Source: a virus. From it: a stretch of DNA of 36,103 bases. Positions 4,514-35,636 of this stretch are shown here, piece after piece; the first letter of the stretch is position 1, and every line of letters starts with the position of its first letter. A model generated the notes under the pieces. It had not been told where the DNA came from, ran no database searches, and worked only from the letters and a program-made list of their open reading frames with translations. The stretch is from positions 1-36,103 of the IMG/VR virus record IMGVR_UViG_3300020165_000067; one strand, given 5' to 3'. Both the position numbers and the translations under genes were made by a program.

Positions 4514-4525
4514 GTTTGTAAATTG

Positions 4526-6461: not shown

Positions 6462-6462
6462 G

Positions 6463-7197
6463 TTAGAGATTGCTTTCTGCGTAAGATTGAAACTTTACCC
6501 ATTCTTTAAAATTGTGGTCTATCAATCCGTTTTTATTTTTTACGTTCTTCTTAGGGTGAATGTTCTTCATTCCGTTTCCTGTAAATTTATATATCTTTCC
6601 GAATCTATGACCGTTATGCTGCCAAGTCGTGCTATCAACCGAATGAAAAGGAATTTCTTTAAGCGTTTTCATTACAGTATAACCTAAGCCGTGGACTTTT
6701 GTTCCTCGCTTCTTCGCATACTGAACTAACGCTTTTAATTTTTCTGGGTTGGTTCTTGTCCATTTACTATCGTGTCTTCCACTTGCGCCTATTGCTATGT
6801 AGTCGTAATTTTCAACCATCCATTTGTAGTAGTCAATGCCCAGAAAGATATGCCAAACAGGAATTGATTTCTTGTTAGTCATGGCTTCGATTGCTGTCCT
6901 TAATTTCTCCGTTTCTTTTGTTCCAATAACCGAATAGATGTCTAATTCAAAAAACAACTCTACATCATTATCATTTATAAACTTTGCATATTCTTCAGTG
7001 TATTGCTTCCAATTGATTTTTGTTTTTTTGTCCCCTATGAATGTGAAAGCCCCACTATCTAACATAAAGTTGTTTCTTAGAAGTAAATGAATGTCCTTCT
7101 TATGTTTCTTCATATATGCGAAACTTTCGAGAATGTTTGCTTTTTGTTCCAACCTTTTCAAGTTGTCGGGTGAAGTTCCCGCAAGGTAGATTTTCAT
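6463..7197 (-). CDS. dpdA: DpdA-like DNA 7-deazaguanine transglycosylase
   Basis: A 244-residue protein of the phage DpdA group, relatives of tRNA-guanine transglycosylase that swap guanine in DNA for a 7-deazaguanine base. Visible motifs are MLDSGAF (45-51), ELDIYSVIG (84-92), AIGASGRHDSKW, VHGLGYT (168-174) and SVDSTTW (186-192), with the acidic residues placed as in the TIM-barrel active site. I chose the ATG at 7197 (MKIYLAGT): it overlaps the ParB-like stop as ATGA, and MKIYLAGT is a natural N-terminus. A longer form starting at 7221 would overlap more. It begins the run dpdA-queC-queD-queE-folE. Confidence 0.88.
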   Translation of the reverse strand: MKIYLAGTSPDNLKRLEQKANILESFAYMKKHKKDIHLLLRNNFMLDSGAFTFIGDKKTKINWKQYTEEYAKFINDNDVELFFELDIYSVIGTKETEKLRTAIEAMTNKKSIPVWHIFLGIDYYKWMVENYDYIAIGASGRHDSKWTRTNPEKLKALVQYAKKRGTKVHGLGYTVMKTLKEIPFHSVDSTTWQHNGHRFGKIYKFTGNGMKNIHPKKNVKNKNGLIDHNFKEWVKFQSYAESNL

Positions 7198-7745
7198 TCC
7201 TTGAGTCCGAGAAGTTTCCAAACAGCATTTTCTGGAGTGCCAGCAATCTCTTTCAAGCCTTCAGTTACTTTCTTATGTTCTTCCTCGGTATATTCTAACA
7301 CAATTTTCGGCAAGGCATCTGCTGATTCTTTTTCCTCGTCATCAAAAAAGTCTGCTAAATCAACATCGTCAAGAATTCCTAATTCGTATTCTTCAAAACC
7401 CCATTCAATTAATTCTTCTTGCTCAAAATAATTAGCCAAAGAATCGAAGTCCCATTCTCCAGTATTCTTGTTTAATCTAACATTCAATTCTCGTTCTTCT
7501 TCAAGAGAGAGATTCACTTCAAAGGTTGGCACTTTTTCGTTTCCTAATGCCTTCCACACCTTGCAGCGTTGATGTCCTCCAACTATTACATTCTCTCTGG
7601 GTGCTTTCTTATTAACTATTACTGGATCAACAAAGCCAAACTTAGAAAGGCTTTTTTCGATTTCTTCAAATTGTTTGTCTCTTAATTGCCTCGGATTGTA
7701 TTCGGCAGGAATAAGATCATCAATTTTTCTTTCTACGATTTTCAT
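7194..7745 (-). CDS. ParB/Srx N-terminal domain protein
   Basis: A 183-residue protein. Residues 1-95 form a ParB/sulfiredoxin-like domain: a start of the IDDLIPAEYNPRQL type, then FGFVDPVIVN, and VIVGGHQRCKVWKALG as the nucleotide/phosphate-binding box. The middle (FEQEELIEWGFEEYELGILD) and the acidic C-terminal part resemble phage ParB-like proteins that sit beside DNA-modifying enzymes. It is likely to act with DpdA on DNA, perhaps as a specificity or nicking partner, but the sequence does not prove this. It overlaps dpdA by four bases and the small upstream gene by four bases, so all three are coupled. Confidence 0.85.
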   Translation of the reverse strand: MKIVERKIDDLIPAEYNPRQLRDKQFEEIEKSLSKFGFVDPVIVNKKAPRENVIVGGHQRCKVWKALGNEKVPTFEVNLSLEEERELNVRLNKNTGEWDFDSLANYFEQEELIEWGFEEYELGILDDVDLADFFDDEEKESADALPKIVLEYTEEEHKKVTEGLKEIAGTPENAVWKLLGLKE

Positions 7746-9148: not shown

Positions 9149-9171
9149 TTTTTTAGTAGTGTTAGTATTTT

Positions 9172-9309
9172 TTAATATCCACCGAGTAACTCGATTTTTA
9201 ACTCATTATGATGCCCTACAAATTTAACTCCGTATTTGGTTAATTCATAAATGCCTTCATAAAAATCTGCTGCGCTTGTGTAAATAATCACGTTGTTATT
9301 GCTTGTCAT
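9172..9309 (-). CDS. Unknown small protein, 45 residues
   Basis: A short open frame starting MTSNNNVIIYTSAADFYEGI and ending ELLGGY. It has a coding-like composition, fills what would otherwise be a gap of 185 bases, and is spaced 23 bases from the next gene. The leader contains AACACTAAAACAAACG before the ATG, a weaker form of the early start leader. No function can be assigned. Confidence 0.6.
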   Translation of the reverse strand: MTSNNNVIIYTSAADFYEGIYELTKYGVKFVGHHNELKIELLGGY

Positions 9310-9333
9310 TTTTTCGTTTGTTTTAGTGTTTTT

Positions 9334-9498
9334 TTAGTCTTCTTTGTAGTATCTGTAATATGATACAAAGTATTTTACTGATCTGTCTTTTTTCTGGTAT
9401 AGAGATCTCATCGCCTCCGCTGCATTTTTATCATAAGTCCAAAATACAGTTTCGCATTTATCGTCCCATCTTTTATTTAGATATATTTTAAGTTTCAT
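9334..9498 (-). CDS. Unknown small protein, 54 residues
   Basis: A basic, tyrosine-rich protein (MKLKIYLNKRWDDKCETV, ending YYRYYKED). I place the start at 9498. An earlier ATG at 9546 would translate a CCAACC repeat tract into an artificial Asn-Gln-Pro stretch and overlap the upstream gene's stop. In the other modules the same tract is untranslated leader. AATAAAAAC lies directly before the chosen ATG. Confidence 0.6.
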   Translation of the reverse strand: MKLKIYLNKRWDDKCETVFWTYDKNAAEAMRSLYQKKDRSVKYFVSYYRYYKED

Positions 9499-9508
9499 GT
9501 TTTTATTT

Positions 9509-9536
9509 GGTTGGTTGGTTGGTTGCGGTTGGTTGG
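9509..9536 (-). repeat. CCAACC leader repeat tract
   Basis: On the plus strand this is GGTT repeated, interrupted once by GGTTGC, with seven GG pairs. In transcripts of the minus strand it becomes a CAACCAACC leader. The same kind of tract follows each of the four promoter modules, but here no promoter sits next to it. The G-rich strand is the template strand and could form a two-layer G-quadruplex. Confidence 0.7.
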
Positions 9537-9716
9537 TTAGATGCAATCTATTGTTTTCAGATCGCTACCCCAATATTTGTAATCTGATTTGATAGCATCC
9601 TCGTTGCTGTAGGGTTTGAAGTATGTCAATTTGGTTTTTTCCTTGTCTTCCCAGAAACAAAGTGTGGTTTCATGTTCGTCTTTTTCAATGCTTACATATT
9701 TGCTATTAATTGTCAT
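9537..9716 (-). CDS. Unknown small protein, 59 residues
   Basis: An open frame reading MTINSKYVSIEKDEHETT to DCI. It is charged, with aromatic residues (FWED, YFKPY, YKYWG), and looks like a small soluble alpha/beta protein. It is the first gene behind promoter module A (9750-9804), with a 33-base leader that contains the CCAACC tract. Module position and clean frame support it as real. Confidence 0.65.
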   Translation of the reverse strand: MTINSKYVSIEKDEHETTLCFWEDKEKTKLTYFKPYSNEDAIKSDYKYWGSDLKTIDCI

Positions 9717-9728
9717 GATGTCGTGTTT

Positions 9729-9804
9729 GGTTGGTTGGTTGCGGTTGTTCCCGCTGATGGTTAAAACATAGCGATAACTTGAATTAATGCAACAAGATAA
9801 TCAT
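9729..9804 (-). promoter_or_regulatory. Early promoter module A with CCAACC leader
   Basis: Read on the minus strand: TGATTATC, TTGTTGCAT (9795-9787), 16 bases, TATGTTTT (9770-9763), 3 bases, CATCAGCGGG (9759-9750), then the CCAACC leader (9747-9729) and the start at 9716. The TTG and TAnnTTT boxes match the Bacteroidota sigma-70 type promoter. Three other copies have identical spacing (modules B, C, D). Transcription would begin near CATCAGCGGG. Confidence 0.75.
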
Positions 9805-9820
9805 CTTATTATGCAAGAAA

Positions 9821-9867
9821 CCCCGCAAACCTTTGATTTAACAAGGATTTGCGGGGCTGTTTTTTTT
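9821..9867. terminator. GC-rich hairpin with T-run, upstream of module A
   Basis: Stem CCCCGCAAA (9821-9829) pairs with TTTGCGGGG (9848-9856), with a further CCTT/AAGG pairing inside. Eight Ts follow on the plus strand (9860-9867); on the minus strand the stem is followed by TTTCTTG. It lies after the stop of the gene at 9944. It looks bidirectional, with the better U-tract facing plus-strand transcription. Confidence 0.65.
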
Positions 9868-9943
9868 CATCTACTACAATGAATGAACTGCTTTTAAGGT
9901 CAAATGACCTGCTTTGCGGTGATTGTTGCACCCATTCCCCGCA

Positions 9944-10216
9944 TCACTTCAAAATGCTTTCTATTTTCTCTCTTCCCGATTCGGTTATCTTAACCCTTAC
10001 AAGTCTCCTGTCTTCAAATGCATTGTAATTTGCGGATCTTGTCCTCAATGCAAATCTTTTCATTTCTAACACATCTATTGCATTTGTTAGATTTACTCTG
10101 CTCATAAAATCAGTGGTTAACTCCTTCATGGTTTGAGAATCGTTTTCAATTAATTGCTCCAAGATATAAATTTGCCTTGGGTTTAATCCGCATGTTATTA
10201 CTTTTTCTATTTTCAT
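9944..10216 (-). CDS. Winged-helix (MarR-like) regulator
   Basis: A 90-residue protein with a winged-helix pattern: helix NPRQIYILEQLIE, then SQTMKELTTDF as helix 2, VNLTNAIDVLEMKRFALRTR as the recognition helix running into the wing, and RRLVRVKITESGREKIESIL as the wing strand and last helix. This is the layout of MarR-like single-domain regulators. It likely binds DNA as a dimer. It is the last gene before the terminator at 9821-9867. Its start overlaps the stop of a 35-residue membrane protein. Confidence 0.7.
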   Translation of the reverse strand: MKIEKVITCGLNPRQIYILEQLIENDSQTMKELTTDFMSRVNLTNAIDVLEMKRFALRTRSANYNAFEDRRLVRVKITESGREKIESILK

Positions 10217-10320
10217 TGTTTTATTATTTCAATGGCTAAAACTCCCATAGCAAAACCCATTATCGAAAAAATCAAAATGATTGCCACGGTTTCTAACAAG
10301 AATCTATTAATCTCTTTCAT
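10213..10320 (-). CDS. Mini membrane protein, 35 residues
   Basis: This short frame begins MKEINRFLLETVAII and carries one hydrophobic helix of about 20 residues (AIILIFSIMGFAMGVLA) followed by IEIIKQ. Its ATG overlaps the stop of the upstream gene (TAATG) and its stop overlaps the start of the downstream gene (ATGA). Tight coupling on both sides supports it as real. The role is unknown; a small inner-membrane effector is possible. Confidence 0.6.
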   Translation of the reverse strand: MKEINRFLLETVAIILIFSIMGFAMGVLAIEIIKQ

Positions 10321-10712
10321 TAATCTACTTCTGGATTTGCCCACTGCATTGCTTCCGCAGAATCTTCTTGCTGCCGTGCTTTTATTTCAAACTCGACTTC
10401 TTTCTCCATGTCTTGCTTGAAAGAAACCATGTCGGCAATACTCAAGCCGTTCTGCTTTGCATACTGCAAATCTGATTCTGTTAATGATTTTCTTGCGTAA
10501 TGATTCTTAAGGAGCAAATTAACGTCCTTGTCTGCTTTCTCTAATATTTTTATTTGATTGTTTAATTTTTCTTTTAATTCTTTTAGCGTATAAAGATCAT
10601 CTTCTAAATAATAAGCAACGTGAGATAATGTGCTCGCTGTTGATACGCAAACACCTTGCAAGTGTCCCGAGCAAATAACGTATGGGTAAGCATATTCTTT
10701 TTCTGTGTCCAT
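10320..10712 (-). CDS. Unknown coiled-coil protein, 130 residues
   Basis: Not recognised. The first 35 residues (MDTEKEYAYPYVICSGHLQG) look like a small folded head. Residues 36-105 are strongly helical with heptad-like Leu spacing (LYTLKELKEKLNNQIKIL), suggesting a coiled coil. The tail is acidic. It is separated by two bases from the preceding gene. Confidence 0.6.
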   Translation of the reverse strand: MDTEKEYAYPYVICSGHLQGVCVSTASTLSHVAYYLEDDLYTLKELKEKLNNQIKILEKADKDVNLLLKNHYARKSLTESDLQYAKQNGLSIADMVSFKQDMEKEVEFEIKARQQEDSAEAMQWANPEVD

Positions 10713-10714
10713 TT

Positions 10715-11188
10715 CTATGCTCTCCTTGGTTTTTTTGTTTCGACAAACTCAACGTCATGCATGAAGCGGTCTAAATACCTCGCCTTTACCTCAAGCACTT
10801 TTGCCTTCACCATGTTTGTAGGGGTTGAAGAACTCCGTGAACCGTGTTGAGCGCCCATGAGAACGTCTTTTTGCAATTGATTGACAAGCTGAAGCATTGA
10901 GGGCGTGTCTCCCGTTTCTTCAATTGAACGCTTCGCCCATGCTAGGAACTTGATTGCTACGTCTAAATGCGCTGCCTTTTCGAATATTGCCTCTGACCAT
11001 TCAAGTTCATGCAAGGGGTCTACCGCATTGTTAAGATCTCCGCATCTGCCGAACTCTTGCTCTTGATAGGCAAGGGTAGTGAAGAAAGAATCCTGTTTCC
11101 TATTTTTGCCCGTGCTTGGCTTATGGTTTTTAAGATACCATTGCGAAAGTTCCACATGGAACTCGACTGCTGATTTTTGCTTTTTCAT
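10715..11188 (-). CDS. Unknown protein, 157 residues
   Basis: Not recognised. It is largely helical, with several Trp and charged residues (ELEWSEAIFEKAAHLDVAIK), then a Ser/Thr-rich basic linker (GSRSSSTPTN) and a second helix. The C-terminus is basic (KKPRRA). The ATG carries the leader AAAAACACTACAAAC, and a GC-rich hairpin sits 30 bases upstream at 11218-11243. Confidence 0.6.
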   Translation of the reverse strand: MKKQKSAVEFHVELSQWYLKNHKPSTGKNRKQDSFFTTLAYQEQEFGRCGDLNNAVDPLHELEWSEAIFEKAAHLDVAIKFLAWAKRSIEETGDTPSMLQLVNQLQKDVLMGAQHGSRSSSTPTNMVKAKVLEVKARYLDRFMHDVEFVETKKPRRA

Positions 11189-11217
11189 GTTTGTAGTGTT
11201 TTTATTTTTTGGTTAAT

Positions 11218-11243
11218 GCCCCCCTATAACGTTATAAGGGGGC
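11218..11243 (-). other. Leader hairpin (CCCCC/GGGGG type) before the 11188 gene
   Basis: An almost perfect palindrome: GCCCCC, a single extra C, then TATAACGTTATA and GGGGGC. On the minus strand it is followed not by a U-run but by ATTAACCAAAAAATAAA and the start leader. Three other early genes have a similar hairpin at the same place, so it looks like an mRNA element (stability, processing or attenuation) rather than a standard terminator. Confidence 0.65.
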
Positions 11244-11255
11244 TGAAATTGTTTA

Positions 11256-11768
11256 TTAAATGTCTGCGTTCAATTCGGCTTCCCATGCTGTAGCAAATGC
11301 CATTACCTCGGCAGGGACTCGCTTCATGGATGCGGGGGCTATGTCCTCGTCATAACATTGCACTACGGGGTTTGCCCCGCAATCCTCACAATAGTAAAAT
11401 GAACTGCCGTAGTTGCCACAAGGGGACTCGATGGTTAAATCATAATCTCCAGCTAACAAGCGCTCCGCTTCAATGTCCCAGCCATTTACTTGCTGAATCA
11501 TTGTATCAAATTTCTCGTATTCTTGAAGTTTGCAATTATCAATTAGGATTGCGTGGAACGGGTTGCAATGCTTGTGTGCTAAATTCCGCAAATCCGTTTG
11601 AACGTAGCCATGTTCTTTTTGGAACTGGATGTTTAATCTGGCGATTGCGCTTGCTTCGTCATCACGCATCCAATTTGCAAGTAGGAGATAATTTTCTGCA
11701 TGTGCATTTTCGCTTTCATTCTTTTTGTAACGATTGAGAACGGATTGATTGATTTCTTTGCTGGTCAT
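11256..11768 (-). CDS. Unknown protein with cysteine pair motif, 170 residues
   Basis: Not recognised. The N-terminal half is helical (MTSKEINQSVLNRYKKN, then LLLANWMRDDEASAIARLN). The C-terminal half contains YYCEDCGANPVVQC, a possible zinc ribbon. It is the first gene behind promoter module B, and its ATG directly follows the leader AAACACTACTACA. It is probably an early protein. Confidence 0.6.
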   Translation of the reverse strand: MTSKEINQSVLNRYKKNESENAHAENYLLLANWMRDDEASAIARLNIQFQKEHGYVQTDLRNLAHKHCNPFHAILIDNCKLQEYEKFDTMIQQVNGWDIEAERLLAGDYDLTIESPCGNYGSSFYYCEDCGANPVVQCYDEDIAPASMKRVPAEVMAFATAWEAELNADI

Positions 11769-11781
11769 TGTAGTAGTGTTT

Positions 11782-11860
11782 GGTTGGTTGGTTGGTTGCG
11801 GTGCTTCCCGCTGATGATTGAAATATGACCTTTATTTGATTTAATGCAACAAGATAATCA
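11782..11860 (-). promoter_or_regulatory. Early promoter module B with CCAACC leader
   Basis: Minus-strand order: TGATTATC, TTGTTGCAT (11852-11844), 16 bases, CATATTTC (11827-11820), 3 bases, CATCAGCGGG (11816-11807), CCAACC tract (11801-11782), start at 11768. The -7 box has C in place of the first T. The upstream side shares AATAAAGGATT with module C. A T8 run (11907-11914, plus strand) lies further upstream beside the stop of the next gene, but I see only a weak stem there. Confidence 0.75.
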
Positions 11861-11921
11861 TGTTGTTGTAGCCAATCCTTTATTCTATATGGGTTTGCGA
11901 AGGCTCTTTTTTTTGATTGAA

Positions 11922-12332
11922 TCAAATTTTTTTGATTAAATCCGCAACTTTTCGCCATTCTTCGGGGGTTGCAGTGATATTATACAGATCCCAAAAAGCC
12001 CCAACGGCTTTATTTATTCTTTCTTTCTTTGTGTTAGTTTCTGGTTTTATATTCTTTGGGAGATTATCTGTTAGATCCCATTCAATGACTGTGTTACCTG
12101 TTTCTCTGCAAGGTCTAACACCTCTCTCGTAAACAACTCCACATTCTGCCAATTCAGAAATTCTTTTCATGCAATCCCTCCCCCCGTCATGGTAGGGCAT
12201 TGCTTTTTGCAATTCACTAGCAGTGCAAGGAACAATATCCATTAAATATTCCATAGCTTGCAGTCTTCTTTTTGAGAGCAATTTGCTTTCTTTTATTTTA
12301 ACGTAGCAATCTATTGATGTTTGTCTTGCCAT
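11922..12332 (-). CDS. Winged-helix phage regulator
   Basis: A 136-residue protein. Residues about 22-85 form a winged helix: LLSKRRLQAMEYLMDIVPC as helix 1, TASELQKAM as helix 2, GGRDCMKRISELAECGVV as the recognition helix, and RGVRPCRETGNTVIEWDL as the wing. This pattern is common in phage proteins that change operon expression. The C-terminal helix (EEWRKVADLIKKI) may dimerise. It is the last gene before module B. Confidence 0.72.
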   Translation of the reverse strand: MARQTSIDCYVKIKESKLLSKRRLQAMEYLMDIVPCTASELQKAMPYHDGGRDCMKRISELAECGVVYERGVRPCRETGNTVIEWDLTDNLPKNIKPETNTKKERINKAVGAFWDLYNITATPEEWRKVADLIKKI

Positions 12333-12361
12333 TTTCTTTTGATGTTTTTAGTTATTTTGAT

Positions 12362-12535
12362 TTAACCTCTTAATTTTATTTCCACGATTTCCCCGTCTTC
12401 CGACTCGCTCACTCTTTGGGCAAAATTGCATGCTGCAAAAAAAGATCTAAAGGGCATGACATTCTCAAAAATTGATTTGTCAGTGTTTCCTTTAACTCCA
12501 ATTCTTATGTAGTAGTTTCTCATTGCGTATCTCAT
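12362..12535 (-). CDS. Unknown small protein, 57 residues
   Basis: An open frame with MRYAMRNYYIRIGVKGNTDK at the start and VEIKLRG at the end. The pattern is strand-helix-strand (FRSFFAACNFAQRV as the helix). The ATG is five bases after the upstream stop. A second ATG lies four codons in and could be the true start. Confidence 0.6.
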   Translation of the reverse strand: MRYAMRNYYIRIGVKGNTDKSIFENVMPFRSFFAACNFAQRVSESEDGEIVEIKLRG

Positions 12536-12539
12536 TCTG

Positions 12540-12815
12540 TTAGTCCTTTCGGGTTTTTACTGCCTCGTCAAATATTGCATCTAAGTTTGCTTCGAAAATT
12601 TCCCATGCTTCTTCTATCCTACTTGATACATCTTCTTTGAATTGCATTAAGATTGCCCCCCTTGTTATTTCTGGAATGTTACAACCAACCTCCAGCAAAA
12701 GCGTTTCAAAGCTCAAGGGCGTGATTAAATTCAAACTTCTTTCAAATGGGGATTTTAGATTGATGTTTTCCCAATCAATTCCCCCGCTTGAAATATCGGT
12801 TATTTTTTCGTTCAT
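12540..12815 (-). CDS. Unknown protein, 91 residues
   Basis: Not recognised. The start MNEKITDISSGGIDWENIN is acidic. A helical C-terminal half follows (VSSRIEEAWEIFEANLDAI). There are no cysteine or nucleotide-binding motifs. It lies three bases from the next upstream gene. Confidence 0.6.
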   Translation of the reverse strand: MNEKITDISSGGIDWENINLKSPFERSLNLITPLSFETLLLEVGCNIPEITRGAILMQFKEDVSSRIEEAWEIFEANLDAIFDEAVKTRKD

Positions 12816-12818
12816 TTT

Positions 12819-13001
12819 TTATTGTGGTAGGTATTGCAAACGATGAACAAAAAGAAGTATGTCTGCCTTGTTTGGATTGTGGTCTAATATGTAAATATTT
12901 AGCATGCTCGATAATGTGATGCCGTTATGCTCCATCCATGTTCTTACGTCTTGAATGTTGCCGTTTAAATAACTTTCTATTGCGTCTTCTATTAAATCCA
13001 T
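12819..13001 (-). CDS. Unknown small helical protein, 60 residues
   Basis: Not recognised. It is acidic at the N-terminus (MDLIEDAIESYLNGNIQDV) and helical throughout, with an aromatic and hydrophobic C-terminus (ILLFVHRLQYLPQ). It lies three bases from each neighbour, in a tight run of genes. Confidence 0.55.
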   Translation of the reverse strand: MDLIEDAIESYLNGNIQDVRTWMEHNGITLSSMLNIYILDHNPNKADILLFVHRLQYLPQ

Positions 13002-13004
13002 TGG

Positions 13005-13211
13005 TTAGTTCCTTTCATCGTTAAGTTGGTCAAAGTCACGCAATCCCGTTCTGCAATAAAGCACTGATTCTAAGGTTTCAATGTTGTAGCCATTAATTTT
13101 AGTAATAAGGATAAGTTCATCGCTGGTAGCAAATTCGCTCATTAATAATTCATCCCAAGCATTCTCAATTTCTGAGGATTCTTGGTTTACTGTTGGTGTT
13201 TGTTTTTTCAT
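13005..13211 (-). CDS. Unknown small acidic protein, 68 residues
   Basis: Not recognised. It begins MKKQTPTVNQESSEIENAWD and is acidic overall. Its ATG is directly preceded by AACACTACTACC, and a GCCCCC/GGGGGC hairpin lies 30 bases upstream (13241-13257), the signature layout for early genes here. Confidence 0.6.
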   Translation of the reverse strand: MKKQTPTVNQESSEIENAWDELLMSEFATSDELILITKINGYNIETLESVLYCRTGLRDFDQLNDERN

Positions 13212-13240
13212 GGTAGTAGTGTTTTTATTTTTTGGTTAAT

Positions 13241-13257
13241 GCCCCCTTGCTGGGGGC
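13241..13257 (-). other. Leader hairpin (GCCCCC/GGGGGC) before the 13211 gene
   Basis: Stem GCCCCC / GGGGGC with a five-base loop. On the minus strand it is followed by ATTAACCAAAAAATAAA and then the CACTACTAC leader. It has the same surroundings as the hairpins at 11218 and 14874, without a U-run. Confidence 0.65.
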
Positions 13258-13266
13258 TGAGATTGG

Positions 13267-13446
13267 TTATTTAGAATCTTGCGTGAAGTATTTCTTAAAG
13301 CGCTCGTTGTAAAGATCATGCTGGAGTGTCGATGCTGTATCGTAAGTATATGTCTTGCCGATTATCTCCTTTGCCTCTTTCCAGCACTCGCCATAGTTTA
13401 TGTGGAAGAATTCAGTTGATGTCATTTTTTTATCGTTTGGTTTCAT
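13267..13446 (-). CDS. Unknown small protein, 59 residues
   Basis: An open frame from ATG 13446 (MKPNDKKMTSTEFFHINYGE) to TAA 13267. It is rich in Lys, Tyr and Thr. The start overlaps the stop of the upstream gene (ATGA). The bases before the ATG read CCACTACTACC even though they also encode the C-terminal Pro-Leu-Leu-Pro of the neighbour. Keeping this leader inside a coding sequence is evidence that the start is real. Confidence 0.65.
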   Translation of the reverse strand: MKPNDKKMTSTEFFHINYGECWKEAKEIIGKTYTYDTASTLQHDLYNERFKKYFTQDSK

Positions 13447-13718
13447 GGTAGTAGTGGATTTTTGGTGAAAACACCGAAAATCTCTCCAATGTATTCAATG
13501 TTGGTATAGATGATGCAGCCGCTTTTAGACTCCTCAATCATCTCGTTAATTTCATGTTCCATGTCCTCAACCTCGTCAAGCTCGTTACCCTCGAACGTCC
13601 AGAGGTTTGAATGTTCCATTACCAGCATATTATCAACGGTTGAATTGTCCTCAATAATACCAGTCAAAAGTTGAATGTCTCTTACGTCTGATTCAATTGT
13701 GAGTTTGTATTTTTTCAT
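13443..13718 (-). CDS. Unknown acidic protein, 91 residues
   Basis: Not recognised. The pattern is strand-helix-strand: MKKYKLTIESDVRDIQLLTG, an acidic helix (ELDEVEDMEHEINEMIEE) and a strand (GCIIYTNIEYIGEIF). Its strong negative charge could mean a DNA mimic, but that is only a suggestion. The leader before the ATG is AACACTACTACAAAC. Confidence 0.6.
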   Translation of the reverse strand: MKKYKLTIESDVRDIQLLTGIIEDNSTVDNMLVMEHSNLWTFEGNELDEVEDMEHEINEMIEESKSGCIIYTNIEYIGEIFGVFTKNPLLP

Positions 13719-13756
13719 GTTTGTAGTAGTGTTGGTGTTGGTGGTTAAAGTTGCGG

Positions 13757-13891
13757 TTAGCTCAATCTTGCTCTGTCATTGATAAGGTCTTGGAGGTCGC
13801 CTCTAAGCATTTGCCGTGTGTCGCTGGAATCGGTCATTTGGATTTCCTCTTTGATTTGGCTAATGTGTAAGTTTATTTCTTCGATTGTCAT
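13757..13891 (-). CDS. Unknown small helical protein, 44 residues
   Basis: An open frame reading MTIEEINLHISQIKEEIQ to NDRARLS. It is entirely helical, with heptad-like spacing. It is the first gene behind promoter module C, and its ATG directly follows AAACACTACT. This position supports it as a real early protein. Confidence 0.62.
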   Translation of the reverse strand: MTIEEINLHISQIKEEIQMTDSSDTRQMLRGDLQDLINDRARLS

Positions 13892-13901
13892 AGTAGTGTT
13901 T

Positions 13902-13979
13902 GGTTTGGTTGCGGTTGCGGTTGCTCCCGCTGATGATCAAAAGGTAGCCATTGCTTGAATTAATGCAACAAGATAATCA
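13902..13979 (-). promoter_or_regulatory. Early promoter module C with CCAACC leader
   Basis: Minus-strand order: TGATTATC, TTGTTGCAT (13971-13963), 16 bases, TACCTTTT (13946-13939), 3 bases, CATCAGCGGG (13935-13926), then GCAACCGCAACCAAACC (to 13902) and the start at 13891. TACCTTTT is a clean TAnnTTT match. AATAAAGGATT lies just upstream, as in module B, and a T7 run (14025-14031, plus strand) precedes that. Confidence 0.78.
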
Positions 13980-14079
13980 TATGCATTTGCTAATCCTTTA
14001 TTTTATACGGCTTGGGGGAGGCTCTTTTTTTCACACGCTGCCCCCTCAACTTGTGAAATTTACACTTTCTTGCGGTTGG

Positions 14080-14394
14080 TTATAGGGCTAAGAGCGCCAT
14101 TGCTTCGCCATACACTTTCTTGTATTCATAAAAAGCAACGCCCTTAATGTTTATATATATGTAAACGGCTTGCTCCGCCGTGCTTACGTTAAAGTCAGCA
14201 CGGGTGGCTTCCGCTGTTCCCTTCTTTGTGTAGCGTTGCGCCCTCCACACCTTGAGCAATAATCTTATGCAATGACGTTTAACTAAATCGTTAGTGCCCT
14301 CAAGCGTATTACCTTTTGCCGTTTTTTCAGCATTTAAAATTGAGGCAAGATTGTTTGCAATTGTCCCCAGTTCGTATTCTTTTTCTGCGTTCAT
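14080..14394 (-). CDS. Unknown protein, 104 residues
   Basis: Not recognised. It starts MNAEKEYELGTIANNLASIL and is helical with basic clusters (VKRHCIRLLLKVWRAQRYTKK). The C-terminus is hydrophobic (EYKKVYGEAMALLAL). The start leader is AACACTACTAAA, and a GCCCTCC/GGAGGGC hairpin lies upstream at 14413-14430. Confidence 0.6.
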   Translation of the reverse strand: MNAEKEYELGTIANNLASILNAEKTAKGNTLEGTNDLVKRHCIRLLLKVWRAQRYTKKGTAEATRADFNVSTAEQAVYIYINIKGVAFYEYKKVYGEAMALLAL

Positions 14395-14412
14395 TTTAGT
14401 AGTGTTATGTTT

Positions 14413-14430
14413 GCCCTCCTTTCGGAGGGC
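14413..14430 (-). other. Leader hairpin (GCCCTCC/GGAGGGC) before the 14394 gene
   Basis: Stem GCCCTCC / GGAGGGC with a four-base TTTC loop, very stable. It sits 19 bases before the ATG and is followed on the minus strand by AAACATAACACTACT. The surroundings are as for the other early leader hairpins, again without a U-run. Confidence 0.65.
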
Positions 14431-14439
14431 TGTTAATAA

Positions 14440-14844
14440 TTAGACGGGGTTGCTTTCTGGGATCTCCTTCAGTGTGTCATAGATCGCAGTGACTGAATGG
14501 TCATCCTTTTTCCAGACGTGCCATTCCCTGCCCTGTCGCTCAATGTTATAGCCTTGCGCTTGGACTCGTTGCACAACCTTGCTCACTCGCTTCCGCTTTG
14601 GTTTTGCTGGAATGGTGAAGAAAGGTGACATGAAGCCGACTAACTCAAATTCGTGCAAATTGTCAAAGTGCGGAGCATGTTGCGGAGGTGTCAAATTCGT
14701 AACTACAATCTGACTGTGATAAGAAGTGCCGTAGGGGTGCAGTTCTTGGATTGTGTGTTCATCGTTTCCAATTCTAACAATGTCCCCGATCTTAAGATCT
14801 CTAACTTTAATGTATTGAATTAAACTGGTTTCTGGTTTTTTCAT
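14440..14844 (-). CDS. Unknown protein, 134 residues
   Basis: Not recognised. Residues about 12-70 contain DLKIGDIVRIGNDEHTIQEL, a beta-rich module. A basic linker (PAKPKRKRVSKVV) separates a second small domain (YNIERQGREWHVWKKD) of possible strand-helix form. The KRKR linker suggests nucleic-acid contact. Start leader: ACACTACTACC. Confidence 0.6.
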   Translation of the reverse strand: MKKPETSLIQYIKVRDLKIGDIVRIGNDEHTIQELHPYGTSYHSQIVVTNLTPPQHAPHFDNLHEFELVGFMSPFFTIPAKPKRKRVSKVVQRVQAQGYNIERQGREWHVWKKDDHSVTAIYDTLKEIPESNPV

Positions 14845-14873
14845 GGTAGTAGTGTTTTTATTTTTTGTTTGAT

Positions 14874-14892
14874 GCCCCCCTTTGCGGGGGGC
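14874..14892 (-). other. Leader hairpin (GCCCCCC/GGGGGGC) before the 14844 gene
   Basis: Stem GCCCCCC / GGGGGGC with a five-base loop (TTTGC on the plus strand). It is followed on the minus strand by ATCAAACAAAAAATAAA and the CACTACTAC leader. It matches the hairpins at 11218 and 13241 in position and flanking sequence. Confidence 0.67.
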
Positions 14893-14904
14893 TGAGATTG
14901 TTTT

Positions 14905-15210
14905 TTAATATCCTAATTCACGGAAAAGTTTTTCATCTCCCAATTGGATGTAGGCGTTTTCGGTTGCTACGATAAAATACATAGGAGCATTAAAGTTCGC
15001 TTCGTATTCATCAATTGAAATAAGATCCTTTTTTGATAGGCTGCCAAGAACCCCCTTCAATGATTGGATATCTATTTCTGTGCCTGCTGCAATGTCCTTT
15101 GCTTCAACATCGGAATAGAACGGCTCATTGTCGTAGTTATACCATCCTTCGTTTTTTAGCCAATTGAGGACTTTCGATTCTAACGCTGTTATTTTGATTT
15201 CGGTTTTCAT
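14905..15210 (-). CDS. Small winged-helix-like protein, 101 residues
   Basis: The start MKTEIKITALESKVLNWLKN forms helix 1 of a likely winged helix. VEAKDIAAGTEIDIQSLKGV then LGSLSKKDLISIDEYE give helix 2, the recognition helix and the wing. This order resembles small phage DNA-binding proteins. It is the first gene behind promoter module D and carries the ACACTACTACAAAC leader. Confidence 0.65.
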   Translation of the reverse strand: MKTEIKITALESKVLNWLKNEGWYNYDNEPFYSDVEAKDIAAGTEIDIQSLKGVLGSLSKKDLISIDEYEANFNAPMYFIVATENAYIQLGDEKLFRELGY

Positions 15211-15226
15211 GTTTGTAGTAGTGTTT

Positions 15227-28551: not shown

Positions 28552-31500
28552 TTATCGTCTATTTAATCCGTAGTTAGTTTCTAGTGCTGGAACAAAATCA
28601 CCACCCCCCTCTCTGGCTTCATTTGTTAGTTCTATCTTGGCTTGCTCTACTGCTTGCGCAACAATTATCTTAAAGTTGCCGTCATCGTCTTGCTCTACTT
28701 CTCCCTCTAACTGAACAGGTGCATTGTTTACAATAGTTACATTCCCGCCTCTTGATCCTCCCGCTATTGGATTGTTAGCTTGTGCAAAAAGGTTAGATTG
28801 CTGAGTTTTGTTTAGAACCATTTCCCCGCTATTTAGTCTGGCGTTTATCTGATCTCCCCCGTAAGAAGCACCGCTTACAATACCTCCTTGCTGGTATGCA
28901 GGAGGCTGCTGAGAGCGTATCTGTGCCACTTGAGCCAATCCGTAAGCAATATTACCCGCTGCAGCTATAAAGTTGTAGGGATAAGGAACAGTAGCCATCG
29001 CTTTTGCTGCGCTTTGATATGTGCTTATTGTGGCTTCTACTATCGCAAATGCTTGCGCTGTTTTAAATCCCTTTTTGCCAAATGCTCCAGCTAATGCACT
29101 CATGCCTCCAAAGAAGTCTTTTGTCGCATCAAGTTTTTGATTCAAAGAATCACGTTCTGCTTTAAGCCTTTGTTCGATTGCGTCATCTTCTATTTTTTTT
29201 ATTAAATCCGTTCTCTGCTGATAAGTTAGATTTGTAGCTTCGTTAATAATCTTTCTCTTGTCTTCTTCGTGCCTTGCAATTCTTTGCAAATCCGATTCAT
29301 AATATTGTTCTAACTGTTCAGCTTCTTGGTCAATGCCTTCCTGTAAATCAATAGCCTTGTTAGTTGCGCCTTGTCTCTCTTCATCTGGCTTTATGTCTTC
29401 TGCAAATTGATCTCCCGCTCTTTGTATAAATTGCGCTTCTTCTTCTGGCTCAAATTTTGCTTTTTTAATTTCGGTTACTGTTCTCGTATATTCTATGGAA
29501 GCCCTTTCTTGCTTTGTTGCCAGATTTTCTCTTATAACTTCTCTTGCTGATTGAGCAGCACTTTTCCCCTTTTCAGCGTTTTGATCTCTTAATGCTTGAA
29601 GCTGATTTTCGTAAAGATTTAAAAGCCATTGCTGATCTGCATTTAGCGTTTTGCCTGTGGCAAGAAAATCATCAAAAACTGTTAGCTTATCTTCAAGAAT
29701 TTTTATGTTCTTGTCGGTTTCCTCGCCAAACATTGCAGCAAGTTTTATTTCCGCTCCTGCAATATCTAACGCTTTTTGTCCTATATCAATAAGCTCTTGG
29801 TTTGATTCAGCTATAAGACCGAATACAGTTGCGAATGTTTTCCCGAAAGATTGAACTCTACCTTCTACTTCACCAAAAGTTTGTTTTAATTTTGCAGCTT
29901 CCGCTCTCCATTGTTCTGTTGTAATTTTGTTGCTTGTAAGCAACTCATTTAATCTTGCAAGTTTTACAATTATTTTAAATTGTTCTTCTGCAATTTGACC
30001 TCCAGCACCTCCGATTCTCATGTAAACCCCAAGTTGCTTTTCTAACTCTTTGGTCGTTTCAAGTTCCGCAGCTACTCGATTTCGTGAGGCTGTTAGGTTT
30101 GCAAGATTAGCCAAGCCTTTTTTGTATTCTGATAAAGTAATCTTTCCTCGGTTAAGATTATCAGCCATGACTTTCAAAGATTGCGAAACCCTTTTTATGT
30201 CATCATCTAACTGTTGTAGATTCTCTTCGCCTCCGTAGTCGCTTGCTATTTTTCTTTGCTTGGCTAACTCTTTTTCAACCTCTAACACCTTCTCTGCAAC
30301 TTTTAATAGTGAGCCAGATCTTAAAGCCCTTTTCTCTGCTGAGTCTGCTAAACTTTTTTCATACTTGGCAATATCAACCGCTCCATCCTCTAACTTTTTA
30401 CCAAAGTTTTCAACTTGTTGCTCTGCATTTTGCCCTAAGAAAATCCATCTTCCTATGATAGCGGGAAATTCGTTTAATGCTATAAAGTATGCTCTGAAAA
30501 TTTCTGGATCTGCTAACACATCAGCAAAGTCTGCAATAGAACCAGAAAGCCCTTCGTTAGCCCCTGTAGCTTGGTTAGCATTTTCTGCCATGATTAAAAA
30601 CGAATTGCCAAGTTTTTTTAATGATGTGCCAAGCGTTTCTCCTGCTATTTTCGAGGCTTCTGCAGTATCTCCAGAGGCTTCCCCTATCGCTTCAATAGCC
30701 TTCTTTGTTTCCTCTAACTTCGCTCCTGTTATGGATGCGGTTAGACTATAAGCCTCAATAGATCTCAAAGCCTTCACAAGCACTTCGTCACTACCACCAG
30801 CCGCTAACCTAACTTTCTCTAACGCTCCCGCTAATCCTTCTTGCTCAATTAAAGCTCTGCCACCCTCAACGCCTAACTTCTCATAGATTGCAGCCATCGT
30901 TTCGGATGGATTCAAAAGTGCAACAATGGCAGCTTTAACTTGTGTGAAACTCTCTGCTGTTTTAACTCCCTGCTTTGTCGTGGCTGCAGTGATGCCTAAC
31001 AATTCTTCTAAACTAACTCCTGCCGTGTTAGCTGTGGCTGAAGCCCTAGCAAGACTCCTAGCAAGTAAAGGTATGGTTGTCTTGCCTAACTTTACAGTTC
31101 TGAATAATTGGTCACTAACTTGCGTTGCGTTATCGGCAGACTTGCCATAACTATTCAGTGCTGTTGTTAGAAGATCTGTAGCAGATCCAATATCTGCCAA
31201 GCCACCTTGCGCTAATTGCGCTGCAACTTTAACAAATTTATCAACCTCTGCAGTAGGAACACCCGCTGAGATTGCTTGGTAAAAACCTTCTGCTGCTTCT
31301 GTAGCATCAACTCCAAGTGCTTGAGCGATCCCTAACGCTTTCAATCGAAGCGAATCCATTTCTTTAGCACTAGCCCCTGCAATAGTTTGCACCTCCTTCA
31401 TGGCGGTATTAAACTTTAGCCACTCTCTTGTTGTTTTTACAACTGTAGCTCCCACTGCAGTTACTCCTACTGCCAATGCTCCAAAGGCAATTCTTGATGC

Positions 31501-31629
31501 TGTAGCTCCCGCCGCTATTTTTTTAGTAACAGAAGATCCAGCATTACCCAAGGAGTTGAGTTTGGTTCTGGCTTGAGTAATTCCAGTTGAATCAACTGTT
31601 AGTCTTAATCTTGCTACGTCTTCAATCAT
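28552..31629 (-). CDS. Tape measure protein
   Basis: A 1025-residue tape measure that sets tail length and forms a channel for DNA. The N-terminus (VARLRLTVDSTGITQARTKL) and FNTAMKEVQTIAGASAKEMD, then AEGFYQAISAGV, match the TP901-type phage tail core. A long alpha-helical, Gln/Lys/Glu-rich middle follows, with hydrophobic stretches near residues 40-62 (SRIAFGALAVGVTAVGATVV) and 855-905. The C-terminal QPPAYQQGGIVSGASYGGDQ is typical of phage tape measures. Its ATG sits inside the stop of the chaperone frameshift extension. Confidence 0.95.
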   Translation of the reverse strand: MIEDVARLRLTVDSTGITQARTKLNSLGNAGSSVTKKIAAGATASRIAFGALAVGVTAVGATVVKTTREWLKFNTAMKEVQTIAGASAKEMDSLRLKALGIAQALGVDATEAAEGFYQAISAGVPTAEVDKFVKVAAQLAQGGLADIGSATDLLTTALNSYGKSADNATQVSDQLFRTVKLGKTTIPLLARSLARASATANTAGVSLEELLGITAATTKQGVKTAESFTQVKAAIVALLNPSETMAAIYEKLGVEGGRALIEQEGLAGALEKVRLAAGGSDEVLVKALRSIEAYSLTASITGAKLEETKKAIEAIGEASGDTAEASKIAGETLGTSLKKLGNSFLIMAENANQATGANEGLSGSIADFADVLADPEIFRAYFIALNEFPAIIGRWIFLGQNAEQQVENFGKKLEDGAVDIAKYEKSLADSAEKRALRSGSLLKVAEKVLEVEKELAKQRKIASDYGGEENLQQLDDDIKRVSQSLKVMADNLNRGKITLSEYKKGLANLANLTASRNRVAAELETTKELEKQLGVYMRIGGAGGQIAEEQFKIIVKLARLNELLTSNKITTEQWRAEAAKLKQTFGEVEGRVQSFGKTFATVFGLIAESNQELIDIGQKALDIAGAEIKLAAMFGEETDKNIKILEDKLTVFDDFLATGKTLNADQQWLLNLYENQLQALRDQNAEKGKSAAQSAREVIRENLATKQERASIEYTRTVTEIKKAKFEPEEEAQFIQRAGDQFAEDIKPDEERQGATNKAIDLQEGIDQEAEQLEQYYESDLQRIARHEEDKRKIINEATNLTYQQRTDLIKKIEDDAIEQRLKAERDSLNQKLDATKDFFGGMSALAGAFGKKGFKTAQAFAIVEATISTYQSAAKAMATVPYPYNFIAAAGNIAYGLAQVAQIRSQQPPAYQQGGIVSGASYGGDQINARLNSGEMVLNKTQQSNLFAQANNPIAGGSRGGNVTIVNNAPVQLEGEVEQDDDGNFKIIVAQAVEQAKIELTNEAREGGGDFVPALETNYGLNRR

Positions 31630-32340
31630 GGAGGCTATTCAGTTGTATTTGGTCTATAAGTCTAATTGCTTTAATGTCAAAATCGCTTAGTTCAATTCCT
31701 GTTAGGCTTGACCAGCAATCAATTTCTTTAAAATCAATAGGCTTATCTGTTTTTAATTCTTGGTAATATTCTAAGACGTATAAAAGATGATCTGGTAACG
31801 GTTTTAATTCTTCTAATTCTTTTGGCTTAACTCCTGTTGTTTTCCAAACTTGTTTTAAGTGCTGGATTTGAGAAGTTTTGCTTCCTTCTGGTCTTTTTTG
31901 GAGCTTGAATTGTTCTCTTGCAAAATTCTCGATTCTTCCAAGCTCCTTTTGATAAAATTTTTCCTTCTGGCTGATGCCACATCAATTTCTTGCGCTAAAA
32001 TTGGAGCGTCTTTTAATACCTTAATAATGTTAGAGTTTGTACACTTGTAAGGTGTGCCGTCATCATTTTTAAAACTCCAAGAGACTACAACTGAAGCAAG
32101 CAAAGCTAATGTTATTTTGTCGGCTTCTATAACGGAATCTAAATTCTCATCCGCTTCAGCCAACTCATGAATTTCTAACAGCTTCTTTCTAAATTTCGAT
32201 TGGGCTTTTTTAAAAGAAACAGAATCTGTGCTTTTAATTTTAATCCAATGTTCTGTTTCGTTTCCCTCAACATCTGTTAGTGGAATCTTAACTCCTTCTT
32301 CTGATAATTTCGCTGTGGCGAATCCTTCTAGGTCTTTCAT
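31622..32340 (-). CDS. Tail assembly chaperone, frameshifted long form (gpGT-like)
   Basis: Zero-frame translation starts at ATG 32340 and runs to the A6 tract at 31899-31894. A -1 slip there leads into a frame open to TGA 31624-31622, adding about 90 residues (RPEGSKTSQIQ to QLNSLHD) to the first 149. The extension is rich in Leu, Lys and Asp, and its composition is coding-like. Its stop overlaps the tape measure start (ATGATTGA), as in many siphophages. The long form should bind the tape measure and the tail tube subunit during assembly. Confidence 0.85.
31855..32340 (-). CDS. Tail assembly chaperone, short form (gpG-like)
   Basis: A 161-residue protein starting MKDLEGFATAKLSEEGVKI and ending in a charged tail (QKEAKLLKSST). 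It has the size and acidic/helical character of gpG-type tail chaperones and sits between the tail tube gene and the tape measure gene, the invariant position for these. It is the main product when no frameshift occurs. A short hairpin and an A-rich leader lie before its start at 32340. Confidence 0.86.
   Translation of the reverse strand: MKDLEGFATAKLSEEGVKIPLTDVEGNETEHWIKIKSTDSVSFKKAQSKFRKKLLEIHELAEADENLDSVIEADKITLALLASVVVSWSFKNDDGTPYKCTNSNIIKVLKDAPILAQEIDVASARRKNFIKRSLEESRILQENNSSSKKDQKEAKLLKSST
31893..31899 (-). other. Probable -1 programmed frameshift site
   Basis: Coding-strand bases TCC AAA AAA GAC, with six As. After the tract the -1 frame stays open for 90 codons, while the zero frame ends after 13 more codons. 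The heptamer CAAAAAA does not match the perfect X-XXY-YYZ pattern, because the first codon position is C, so slipping would need a mismatch in the P site. A-run slippage of this type is known for tail chaperones. Confidence 0.72.
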
Positions 32341-32412: not shown

Positions 32413-33354
32413 TTAAACTGCCGAGCGATCTATTTGGATGTTAGACAATACTGTTGTATCATCAACAAGTGCTTGGAATGGCACTGCAAGGGTTATTGCC
32501 CCTGCTCCACTCACATCGGGATTAGCTCCTCCTGTATAAGTGACGCGAGGGATCAGAAATTCATACTTGTTAGTTCCATCGTTAAGTTCAAATTCAATGC
32601 TTGATTCTGTCTCATTGATAAACTTCTCAACCTGTTCAGCGTTCTCAAAATACATGGTTGCAGATCCTGTTAGCGTAGAACGTCCAATAGTTGGGTATTC
32701 GGTTAGATCAGATCCAACTACGTTTCGAGCCTCAAGACCATTTTCCAGAGTTAAGGTTAGTTCCGTAATGATGGAGATAAGAGTGCCGTCAACTTTAACA
32801 GATCCAGTGAATCCATTAAAAGGACAGTTTGCGCTTGTTGTCCCCAGAACTGATCCTGCTGGTTCTGTCTCATTTACTGACATATTCTGCCCGATAGTGC
32901 CGAAAGAGCCTGTAAGCGTCCCTACGGGTGCTACAGTGAGGTTCAGCGTGTTATACTCTACCCCCGTGTAAATATAGTAGGGTTTATCGGCAGCAAGTTG
33001 GTCTGAGAAATGGCGCATAAGCGTGAAACTCCTGCGAGTAACTCCACCTAACAAGCGATCAATTCCTACCCCGCCTCCGTCTACATCCCAAGTGCCTAAC
33101 AGAACAGCTTCTAGCTCTTCGTCATAAGATCCATAGGAAATTTCAAAACCAATATCTCCAGCTACGGCTTTTACTCCGTGCTTGGCACATTTGATCTGGC
33201 GGTCTTCTCTTAGCTCTTCGCTAACAGTAATATCTTTCGACATTCCAAGACTAACAGCCGTATGGCGTAGTTTTTTGAATGAAGGAGTTGCGGGAGTTAC
33301 CCCGTAAGTTGATTCCTCTACAGAGTAGAGGGCATGGCGTGAAGCATCTGACAT
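32413..33354 (-). CDS. Major tail tube protein
   Basis: A 313-residue tail tube subunit. The start MSDASRHALYSVEESTYGVT is typical of phage tail tube proteins, followed by TPSFKKLRHTAVSLGM and FEISYGSYDEELEAVLLGTW. The fold is expected to be mostly beta. The length includes the usual core plus a longer C-terminal region (STLTGSATMYFENAEQVEKF). It lies after the tail terminator and before the chaperone, the usual order. It would polymerise into the tail tube. Confidence 0.9.
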   Translation of the reverse strand: MSDASRHALYSVEESTYGVTPATPSFKKLRHTAVSLGMSKDITVSEELREDRQIKCAKHGVKAVAGDIGFEISYGSYDEELEAVLLGTWDVDGGGVGIDRLLGGVTRRSFTLMRHFSDQLAADKPYYIYTGVEYNTLNLTVAPVGTLTGSFGTIGQNMSVNETEPAGSVLGTTSANCPFNGFTGSVKVDGTLISIITELTLTLENGLEARNVVGSDLTEYPTIGRSTLTGSATMYFENAEQVEKFINETESSIEFELNDGTNKYEFLIPRVTYTGGANPDVSGAGAITLAVPFQALVDDTTVLSNIQIDRSAV

Positions 33355-34337: not shown

Positions 34338-34775
34338 TCATTGATTAAGAAGTTCATTATGTTTTTTAGATTTGTTTTTATAGACGAAATAGCCACCAAC
34401 TTTCAAACCTAACATTATTTTTTTTCTACTCCACCATCCTACAGGACACCAGTGATTTGTCATTGCTCTTAATAAAACATTATCCGCTTTTTGTTTCCCA
34501 TCTTTTCCAAAGAGTTGAGAAGTATAGAGGTAGTCATGTATTACAGCACTTCCGTTAGCGTTTTGAATTTTGCTGACTATTGATCTAACAATTTTGGGTA
34601 TGCTGTAAAGATCTGTGATAAATCCCTTGGGAACTTTTATTGTTCCACATTCATCATCTTGGTAGATATAATCTCTAAGCAACTGCCACTTACCATCACC
34701 AATTTCCCTCAAGTCCAAAGGGAGAGGAAAAAAATCATTAGTATGATCTGTTAGGTGCTGTTTGTGGCTGTGCAT
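34338..34775 (-). CDS. DUF1353-like protein
   Basis: A 145-residue protein with KVPKGFITDLYSIPKIV and AVIHDYLYTSQLFG, the core motifs of DUF1353 phage proteins, which are common near tail or lysis genes. An Asp, a His and a Tyr-rich stretch may bind metal or be structural. The C-terminus is basic (KNKSKKHNELLNQ). The role is unknown even in relatives. Confidence 0.8.
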   Translation of the reverse strand: MHSHKQHLTDHTNDFFPLPLDLREIGDGKWQLLRDYIYQDDECGTIKVPKGFITDLYSIPKIVRSIVSKIQNANGSAVIHDYLYTSQLFGKDGKQKADNVLLRAMTNHWCPVGWWSRKKIMLGLKVGGYFVYKNKSKKHNELLNQ

Positions 34776-35075
34776 TTAGTTGAATGTCGCTGCTAACTTT
34801 AGATAGTCATCTACCTTTTCTTGACTCCATCCAAGAGATGAAACCGCCCCAAGGAATAAAGGATGGTTGCTTGTAAAAGTTGCTGCATGATTCCATCCGT
34901 CAATCATATTCTGATCTCCGCTTGCTTCCACCAAAGAATCAACCGCTTGCCTATCTTCTGGCACTGTATTTAGAGCTTGTTTGATTTGATAGTTTGTTAC
35001 GATTTTAGGCACTGCATTAATTAGTGCCTCATGCTCTTGGGTTTGCCTTGCCAATAATTCTTGTGCTGTTTCCAT
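34776..35075 (-). CDS. Unknown acidic protein, 99 residues
   Basis: Not recognised with certainty. It is fully helical and acidic (METAQELLARQTQEHEAL), with PLFLGAVSSLGWSQEKVDDY near its end. Its position between the GT25-like gene and the DUF1353-like gene suggests a virion or fibre accessory protein. It has no membrane segment. Confidence 0.6.
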   Translation of the reverse strand: METAQELLARQTQEHEALINAVPKIVTNYQIKQALNTVPEDRQAVDSLVEASGDQNMIDGWNHAATFTSNHPLFLGAVSSLGWSQEKVDDYLKLAATFN

Positions 35076-35078
35076 AAT

Positions 35079-35636
35079 TTATTTTGTTAGGAGTTTCGTT
35101 TTAATTTTTTTGCCGTGCGGAATGTCTGAGTTTTCTTCATCGTTAGATTCAAAAATATTTAGATAGCCTACCCCGTTTTTACTTAGCCAAATATCATAAG
35201 GCTCTAACATGAATGGATCTTTTAATTCTCTGAGTTGAGCTAAGTTTGGTAGCGTTTGCAGCAAGTAATCAAAAGTTGATTTGTGATAATAAACCGCATG
35301 ACTGCCTACAATGTTAGTAAATCTTTCGTTATGTAATTCTTCGCTGCCCTCTGTAAAATCGCCTCCTAAAAATGTCAAAGGGAAGGGAAACTTTTTTGGC
35401 AGTTCAGATTTTATGTCTGCATCATCTTCTAAAACAAGAACCTCATTTAATCCTTGTTGCTTTGCTAACTCTACTGCTTGCCTATGTCCTAACATACAGC
35501 CTAAATTTCCAAGACTCCAATCAATTCCAACTACGCCTGTTAGCCTCTCTTGAATTAGAAACTCATACTCGAAAGGTAGGTGAAATCTATCTCTCCTATC
35601 TTGCCTTTCTTTTAAGCTAATTACGTAAGTTTTCAT
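35079..35636 (-). CDS. GT25-like glycosyltransferase
   Basis: A 185-residue enzyme of the LPS/GT25 glycosyltransferase type, which transfers a sugar from a nucleotide donor. Motifs: YVISLKERQDRR at the start, LGCMLGHRQAVELA, VLVLEDDADI (the metal-binding DxD-like acidic run) and GSHAVYYHKSTFDYLL. The length is on the short side for GT25. It may glycosylate a tail fibre or alter host surface sugars. It overlaps the fibre-like gene by one base. Confidence 0.82.
   Translation of the reverse strand: MKTYVISLKERQDRRDRFHLPFEYEFLIQERLTGVVGIDWSLGNLGCMLGHRQAVELAKQQGLNEVLVLEDDADIKSELPKKFPFPLTFLGGDFTEGSEELHNERFTNIVGSHAVYYHKSTFDYLLQTLPNLAQLRELKDPFMLEPYDIWLSKNGVGYLNIFESNDEENSDIPHGKKIKTKLLTK

Follow-up and report, generated by a model that had tools for sequence, protein, structure and literature searches.

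A probable -1 ribosomal frameshift at a conserved A_AAU_UUU heptamer and covarying stem in the tail assembly chaperone genes of an IMG/VR virus, and its homologues in other phages

The stretch of viral DNA analysed here, called the window, comprises positions 1-36,103 of IMG/VR record IMGVR_UViG_3300020165_000067 (36,103 nt) and carries on its minus strand two overlapping reading frames that, judging from sequence comparison, very probably give rise to a gpG/gpGT tail assembly chaperone pair through programmed -1 ribosomal frameshifting. An earlier note on this DNA had proposed such a pair, for which the comparison adds support, but it had placed the slip on a non-standard run of six A residues (A6) with one mismatch. 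The evidence points instead, with high confidence, to a canonical heptamer, A_AAT_TTT, and a covarying stem, both upstream of that run. A misplaced recoding site is thus corrected, and comparison among relatives is seen to settle sites of this kind.

The longer of the two parts, G, is a gpG-like open reading frame (ORF) at 31855-32340 on the minus strand (161 aa, 18.0 kDa), taken here as the zero frame, which matches phrog_313 'Tail assembly chaperone' (E 1.4e-17) and gave no Pfam match at E <= 0.1. The T part is in the -1 frame (31622-31981, minus strand), matches PF23812 Phage_TAC_18 (E 1.7e-14; 54.1 bits against a cut-off of 27) and phrog_4966 (E 1.8e-14), and has no ATG, GTG or TTG anywhere in its frame. 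The two overlap over 31981-31855 and sit between the gene for the tail tube protein upstream (32413-33354, minus strand; PF18906 Phage_tube_2, E 2e-46) and that for the tape measure protein downstream (28552-31629, minus strand; PHROG tape measure families, best E 2.1e-39, and PF10145, E 1.2e-30). The -1 frame had been described as open from A6; it is indeed stop-free down to 31622, but it opens at 31981, 82 nt upstream of A6, and the count of about 90 residues from A6 to the T stop, itself correct, becomes 110 when made from the heptamer, with the residues after the slip coded by 31954-31625. The T stop had also been said to overlap the tape measure ATG (31629-31627); the TGA (31624-31622) lies two bases past it, the two ORFs overlapping by 8 nt. 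Two further genes lie upstream of the tail genes, at 34338-35636: one resembles glycosyltransferase family 25 (PF01755, E 5.3e-9), and the other encodes a DUF1353 protein.

Across the overlap the zero frame runs AGA AGG AAA AAT TTT ATC, and the codons AAA AAT TTT hold the heptamer (31954-31960, minus strand), with 54 nt between it and A6. That A6 (31899-31894) is read TCC AAA AAA GAC and does not make a full X_XXY_YYZ pattern was rightly observed, but the overlap does contain such a pattern, which had been overlooked: A_AAT_TTT at 31960-31954 is the sole one in phase within 31981-31855, and the only other in-phase heptamer of G, GGGAAAC at 32266-32260, falls outside the overlap. A heptamer by its mere presence is weak evidence, and it is conservation that decides. 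In 40 ORFs of the window, 74 out of 9702 codon positions carry a zero-frame X_XXY_YYZ pattern, which gives any heptamer a 27% chance of appearing in the 41-codon overlap (1.7% for AAATTTT); a heptamer that is conserved and accompanied by a covarying stem is not expected in this way.

Relatives were collected by scanning viral contigs for matches to the tail tube protein and to G and T, and the hits were collapsed to 12 distinct two-part overlaps including the window (L037, with no T match, was left out); T lies at -1 in all 12. The close set holds nine sequences, the G of the eight relatives being 59-77% identical to that of the window, and the three far IMG/VR overlaps (G 29-31% identical) have A_AAA_AAG nearby. 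AAATTTT is identical and in the same place in all nine close sequences and stands at the same aligned place in four far relatives (L111, L124, L126 and L138). The slip codons are Asn AAT and Phe TTT in every close sequence, while elsewhere in the same G genes AAC and AAT are used 22 and 18 times and TTT and TTC 30 and 13 times. Of 43 columns in which the residue never varies although synonymous codons are available, seven show a single codon in all nine sequences, namely the two heptamer codons and five others elsewhere in G, so that codon identity alone does not single out the heptamer site. When viral contigs were scanned with the heptamer and stem as one pattern, 18 stretches were returned, all on contigs already known, and among contigs of sequenced genomes none of 25 pattern matches was confirmed as a relative. 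No Shine-Dalgarno stimulator is conserved among the relatives in the 30 nt upstream of the heptamer, as judged by eye on the alignment; such a stimulator is optional in -1 signals, found in some cases and not a defining requirement.

Heptamers of the class H_HH.U_UU.Y, A_AAU_UUU included, are among the most efficient in E. coli, according to PMC4066793, and the slippage rules of E. coli may not hold in the host of the window's phage. A literature search, limited in subscription journals, found neither AAATTTT nor AAAUUUU for any tail chaperone, and its sole match for AAATTTT was within a Wolbachia hydrolase. A_AAU_UUU would thus be a heptamer not found reported for this chaperone family, the kind of signal itself being known, and is added to those seen in it.

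The heptamer is followed by a 7-nt spacer, ATCAAAA (31947-31953, minus strand), and then by a stem in which the 5' arm GGAGCTTGGA (31937-31946) forms 10 bp with the 3' arm TTCAAGCTCC (31900-31909), both on the minus strand; A6 starts at the base directly after it. In the gap-free alignment of the nine close sequences, on which the stem counts were taken, 97.8% of 90 cells (10 pairs in nine sequences, related by descent and so not independent) are paired, and pairing falls to 13-54% when the partner is slid out of register. At three of the ten pairs both sides have changed, twice from GC to AU and once from UA to CG, and RNAalifold independently recovered the same ten; the covariation score was reached by one of 500 shuffles and the number of pairs changed on both sides by 23 of 500. 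For the window's own stretch the folding energy is -14.7 kcal/mol, whereas shuffles give -7.8 (z -2.71; three of 200 as stable), and a helix of 9-11 bp at the expected place in every close sequence was matched by 0-3 of 300 shuffles each. Some of the complementarity is a consequence of Glu-Leu and Lys-Leu codons in the T frame. A search for a pseudoknot between the loop and downstream bases, with a threshold of 5 bp or more in seven or more of the nine close sequences, found none that is conserved.

The pattern of divergence in the same alignment shows where the second frame comes under constraint. At zero-frame codon positions 1, 2 and 3, divergence is 0.29, 0.17 and 0.57 upstream of the heptamer, 0.25, 0.34 and 0.31 from the heptamer to the end of the stem, and 0.27, 0.50 and 0.35 beyond the stem; the third-position drop from 0.57 to 0.31 past the heptamer means that the -1 frame is already constrained between the heptamer and A6. 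Seven sequences have both frames open over that stretch, and of the 21 pairs that they form, 16 have the -1 peptide better conserved and three are ties. A tblastn search with the -1 ORF against 50,697 phage records matched 110 of them, and the match starts fall, among the matches listed, at residues 1-24 of that ORF, ahead of A6, which corresponds to about residue 28.

On this basis, the majority of ribosomes would terminate at the end of G and release gpG (161 aa). The stem, 7 nt further on, would stall a minority while AAU is occupied by tRNA-Asn and UUU by tRNA-Phe; the two tRNAs would then re-pair one base upstream, with AAA and with UUU, and reading would continue in the -1 frame. The predicted gpGT would then be a protein of 129 + 110 = 239 aa (27.4 kDa), with RRKNF joined to YQKELGR at the junction and YQKELGRIENFAREQFK as its -1 stretch. 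By analogy with lambda, binding of the tape measure protein may fall to gpG, and recruitment of the tail tube protein to the T domain.

Three other accounts of the two frames were weighed against this one. Slippage at A6 (31894-31899, minus strand), where a single tRNA would slip on A_AAA with the other site mismatched, has in its favour that the run is in phase for an A_AAA tetramer slip, lies inside the overlap and is retained in four of the nine close sequences (window included). It is missing from the other five, and in two of the set (L013 and L034) the zero frame ends about 30 nt past the heptamer, ahead of the A6 position, while the T-frame protein is conserved upstream of it. The stem, moreover, lies upstream of A6 and would already be unwound when a ribosome reached the run, and of six tetramers active in E. 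coli A_AAA is the weakest, a strong stimulator notwithstanding (PMC4066793); A6 was rejected as the slip site, and slippage there is very improbable. The split could also stem from faulty assembly or sequencing, or from slippage during transcription on the A-run that the overlap does contain, and this is the least credible of the three, close to negligible, given that the two-frame layout recurs in all 12 IMG/VR overlaps (window included) and in all 20 phage records read in detail, and that A6 is shorter than the A-runs of more than seven quoted for transcriptional slippage in PMC3711429.

Independent initiation of T at an internal non-standard start, for example at ATC 31933 behind AAAAGGAGC, gains some colour from a Shine-Dalgarno-like AGGAG 9 nt ahead of that codon. 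The T frame lacks a standard start, however, neither AGGAG nor ATC 31933 is retained across all relatives, and a Shine-Dalgarno-like core within 22 nt upstream is found for only five of 52 ORFs of the window (main ORFs, 375-36031; GC 38.9%), on which grounds this account was rejected, and it must be reckoned even more improbable than a slip at A6.

The scarcity of such cores hints at a host not reliant on Shine-Dalgarno sequences, such as a member of the Bacteroidota. Elsewhere in the window, over 9154-15224, the motif ACACTACTA occurs nine times in the window against 0.18 expected, eight of the nine on the coding strand and several directly ahead of start codons; it is a possible promoter or translation leader of small genes. 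A cluster at 3656-7745 holds genes for GTP cyclohydrolase I, QueE and QueD together with QueC-like, queuine tRNA-ribosyltransferase-like and ParB/methyltransferase-like genes, and would represent a 7-deazaguanine pathway, perhaps for DNA modification. A link between queuosine-type genes and slippage on AAU was considered and set aside: in a weak count over fragmentary records, QueE appeared in one of 11 records of relatives with the same signal, and none was found in a record of 42 kb.

A wider view of the family came from a T profile scan, in which the best 80 of 99 confirmed relatives reduced to 53 distinct loci; T is at -1 in 27 of these and at +1 in 26. In all 26 of the latter the zero frame has AAC or AAT and then TTT, and the next codon is CGN in 24 and either TGC or CAA in the remaining two; the zero-frame stop comes 2-6 codons past the slip column, and in 20 the T frame opens exactly at that column, which is mostly near locus position 2498 (L083, L091, L097, L104 and L129 are among these loci). 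L177 and L178 show the +1 placement in addition to the 26. Limnohabitans phage DC31 and Curvibacter phage P26059A both have AAC TTT CGA. Some of the -1 relatives (L085, L086, L088, L089, L094 and L078) have no full heptamer and show only a T-run at the homologous place, reading GCT TTT ATG or CTT TTT ATG. The +1 homologues apparently slip on UUU_C at the Asn-Phe junction, and the shift is taken as +1 and not -2 from that UUU_C and by analogy with influenza PA-X, whose shift on UCC_UUU_CGU was proven by mass spectrometry (PMC3498833).

The distribution of the two directions was followed on a quick tree of 75 fused proteins (the 53 loci, 17 of the 20 phage records, DC31, P26059A and the three far IMG/VR loci), with 47 rows at -1 and 28 at +1, the latter sharing their Asn-Phe junction with the -1 sites. 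On this tree the direction has to change twice, both changes being forced by starred branches, and the -1 lineage of L138 groups with L104 and P26059A, which are +1; between L138 and L104, identity is 72% for G and 51% for T. The same result came from a careful tree of 36 rows (support 100/99), with none of 200 bootstrap trees having a single change, and holding all +1 rows together is rejected (p-AU 0.011, in a test picked once the first tree had been seen and on data that include long branches). L138 and L139 come from two metagenomes, and their sequences are identical over the compared region. It is thus probable, with some room for doubt, that the Asn-Phe fusion point is fixed while the predicted direction varies, being -1 on A_AAU_UUU in the clade of the window, +1 on AAY_UUU_C in a large clade including DC31 and P26059A, and again -1 on A_AAU_UUU in L138/L139. 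If so, selection would act on making the fusion and on its amount, not on the slipping mechanism, and the change of direction offers a natural experiment on whether junction and dose or the mechanism is held. A change of direction within one chaperone family was not found in a limited literature search, and a word search for 'frameshift' gave no mention in PMC12195039 and PMC5964084.

A +1 shift between tail chaperones has been proposed for the HF1-group haloviruses, on TTT-CGC (PMC7230728). The motif and the gene position are the same as in the +1 homologues described above; these haloviruses infect archaea, and the window itself is -1. Nearer to the window are the isolated phages, 20 of whose 110 matched records were read in detail. 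T is at -1 to a G ORF in every one, and the overlap holds TTTTTTC in 15 and GGGAAAC or GGGAAAG in two, with no heptamer found at the homologous place in the remaining three (Serbin, CRP-6 and CA8). A helix of 6-9 bp begins 5-10 nt past TTTTTTC in 11 of the 15, matched by fewer than 10% of shuffles in nine, and no helix beginning in that interval was found in the other four. PaMx11, PaMx74, Mallos, R7M, Vid5 and DMU1, the last annotated in its record as having a gpG/gpGT frameshift pair, resemble the window in a homologous T, a -1 shift, the same slip place and often a helix after it; the isolated phages differ in having T_TTT_TTC or G_GGA_AAR where the window has A_AAT_TTT. The conserved -1 frameshift of tail chaperones in long-tailed phages is summarised in PMC5009743. 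With the lambda gpG/gpGT pair the window shares the order tail tube, G, T and tape measure, a long G ORF, a -1 T frame without a start and a slippery site in the overlap. The conservation of this -1 frameshift among long-tailed phages was reportedly described by Xu, Hendrix and Duda in 2004. The heptamer of lambda is G_GGA_AAG, whereas that of the window is A_AAU_UUU, and the window is also unlike lambda in that its T part is a Phage_TAC_18 protein.
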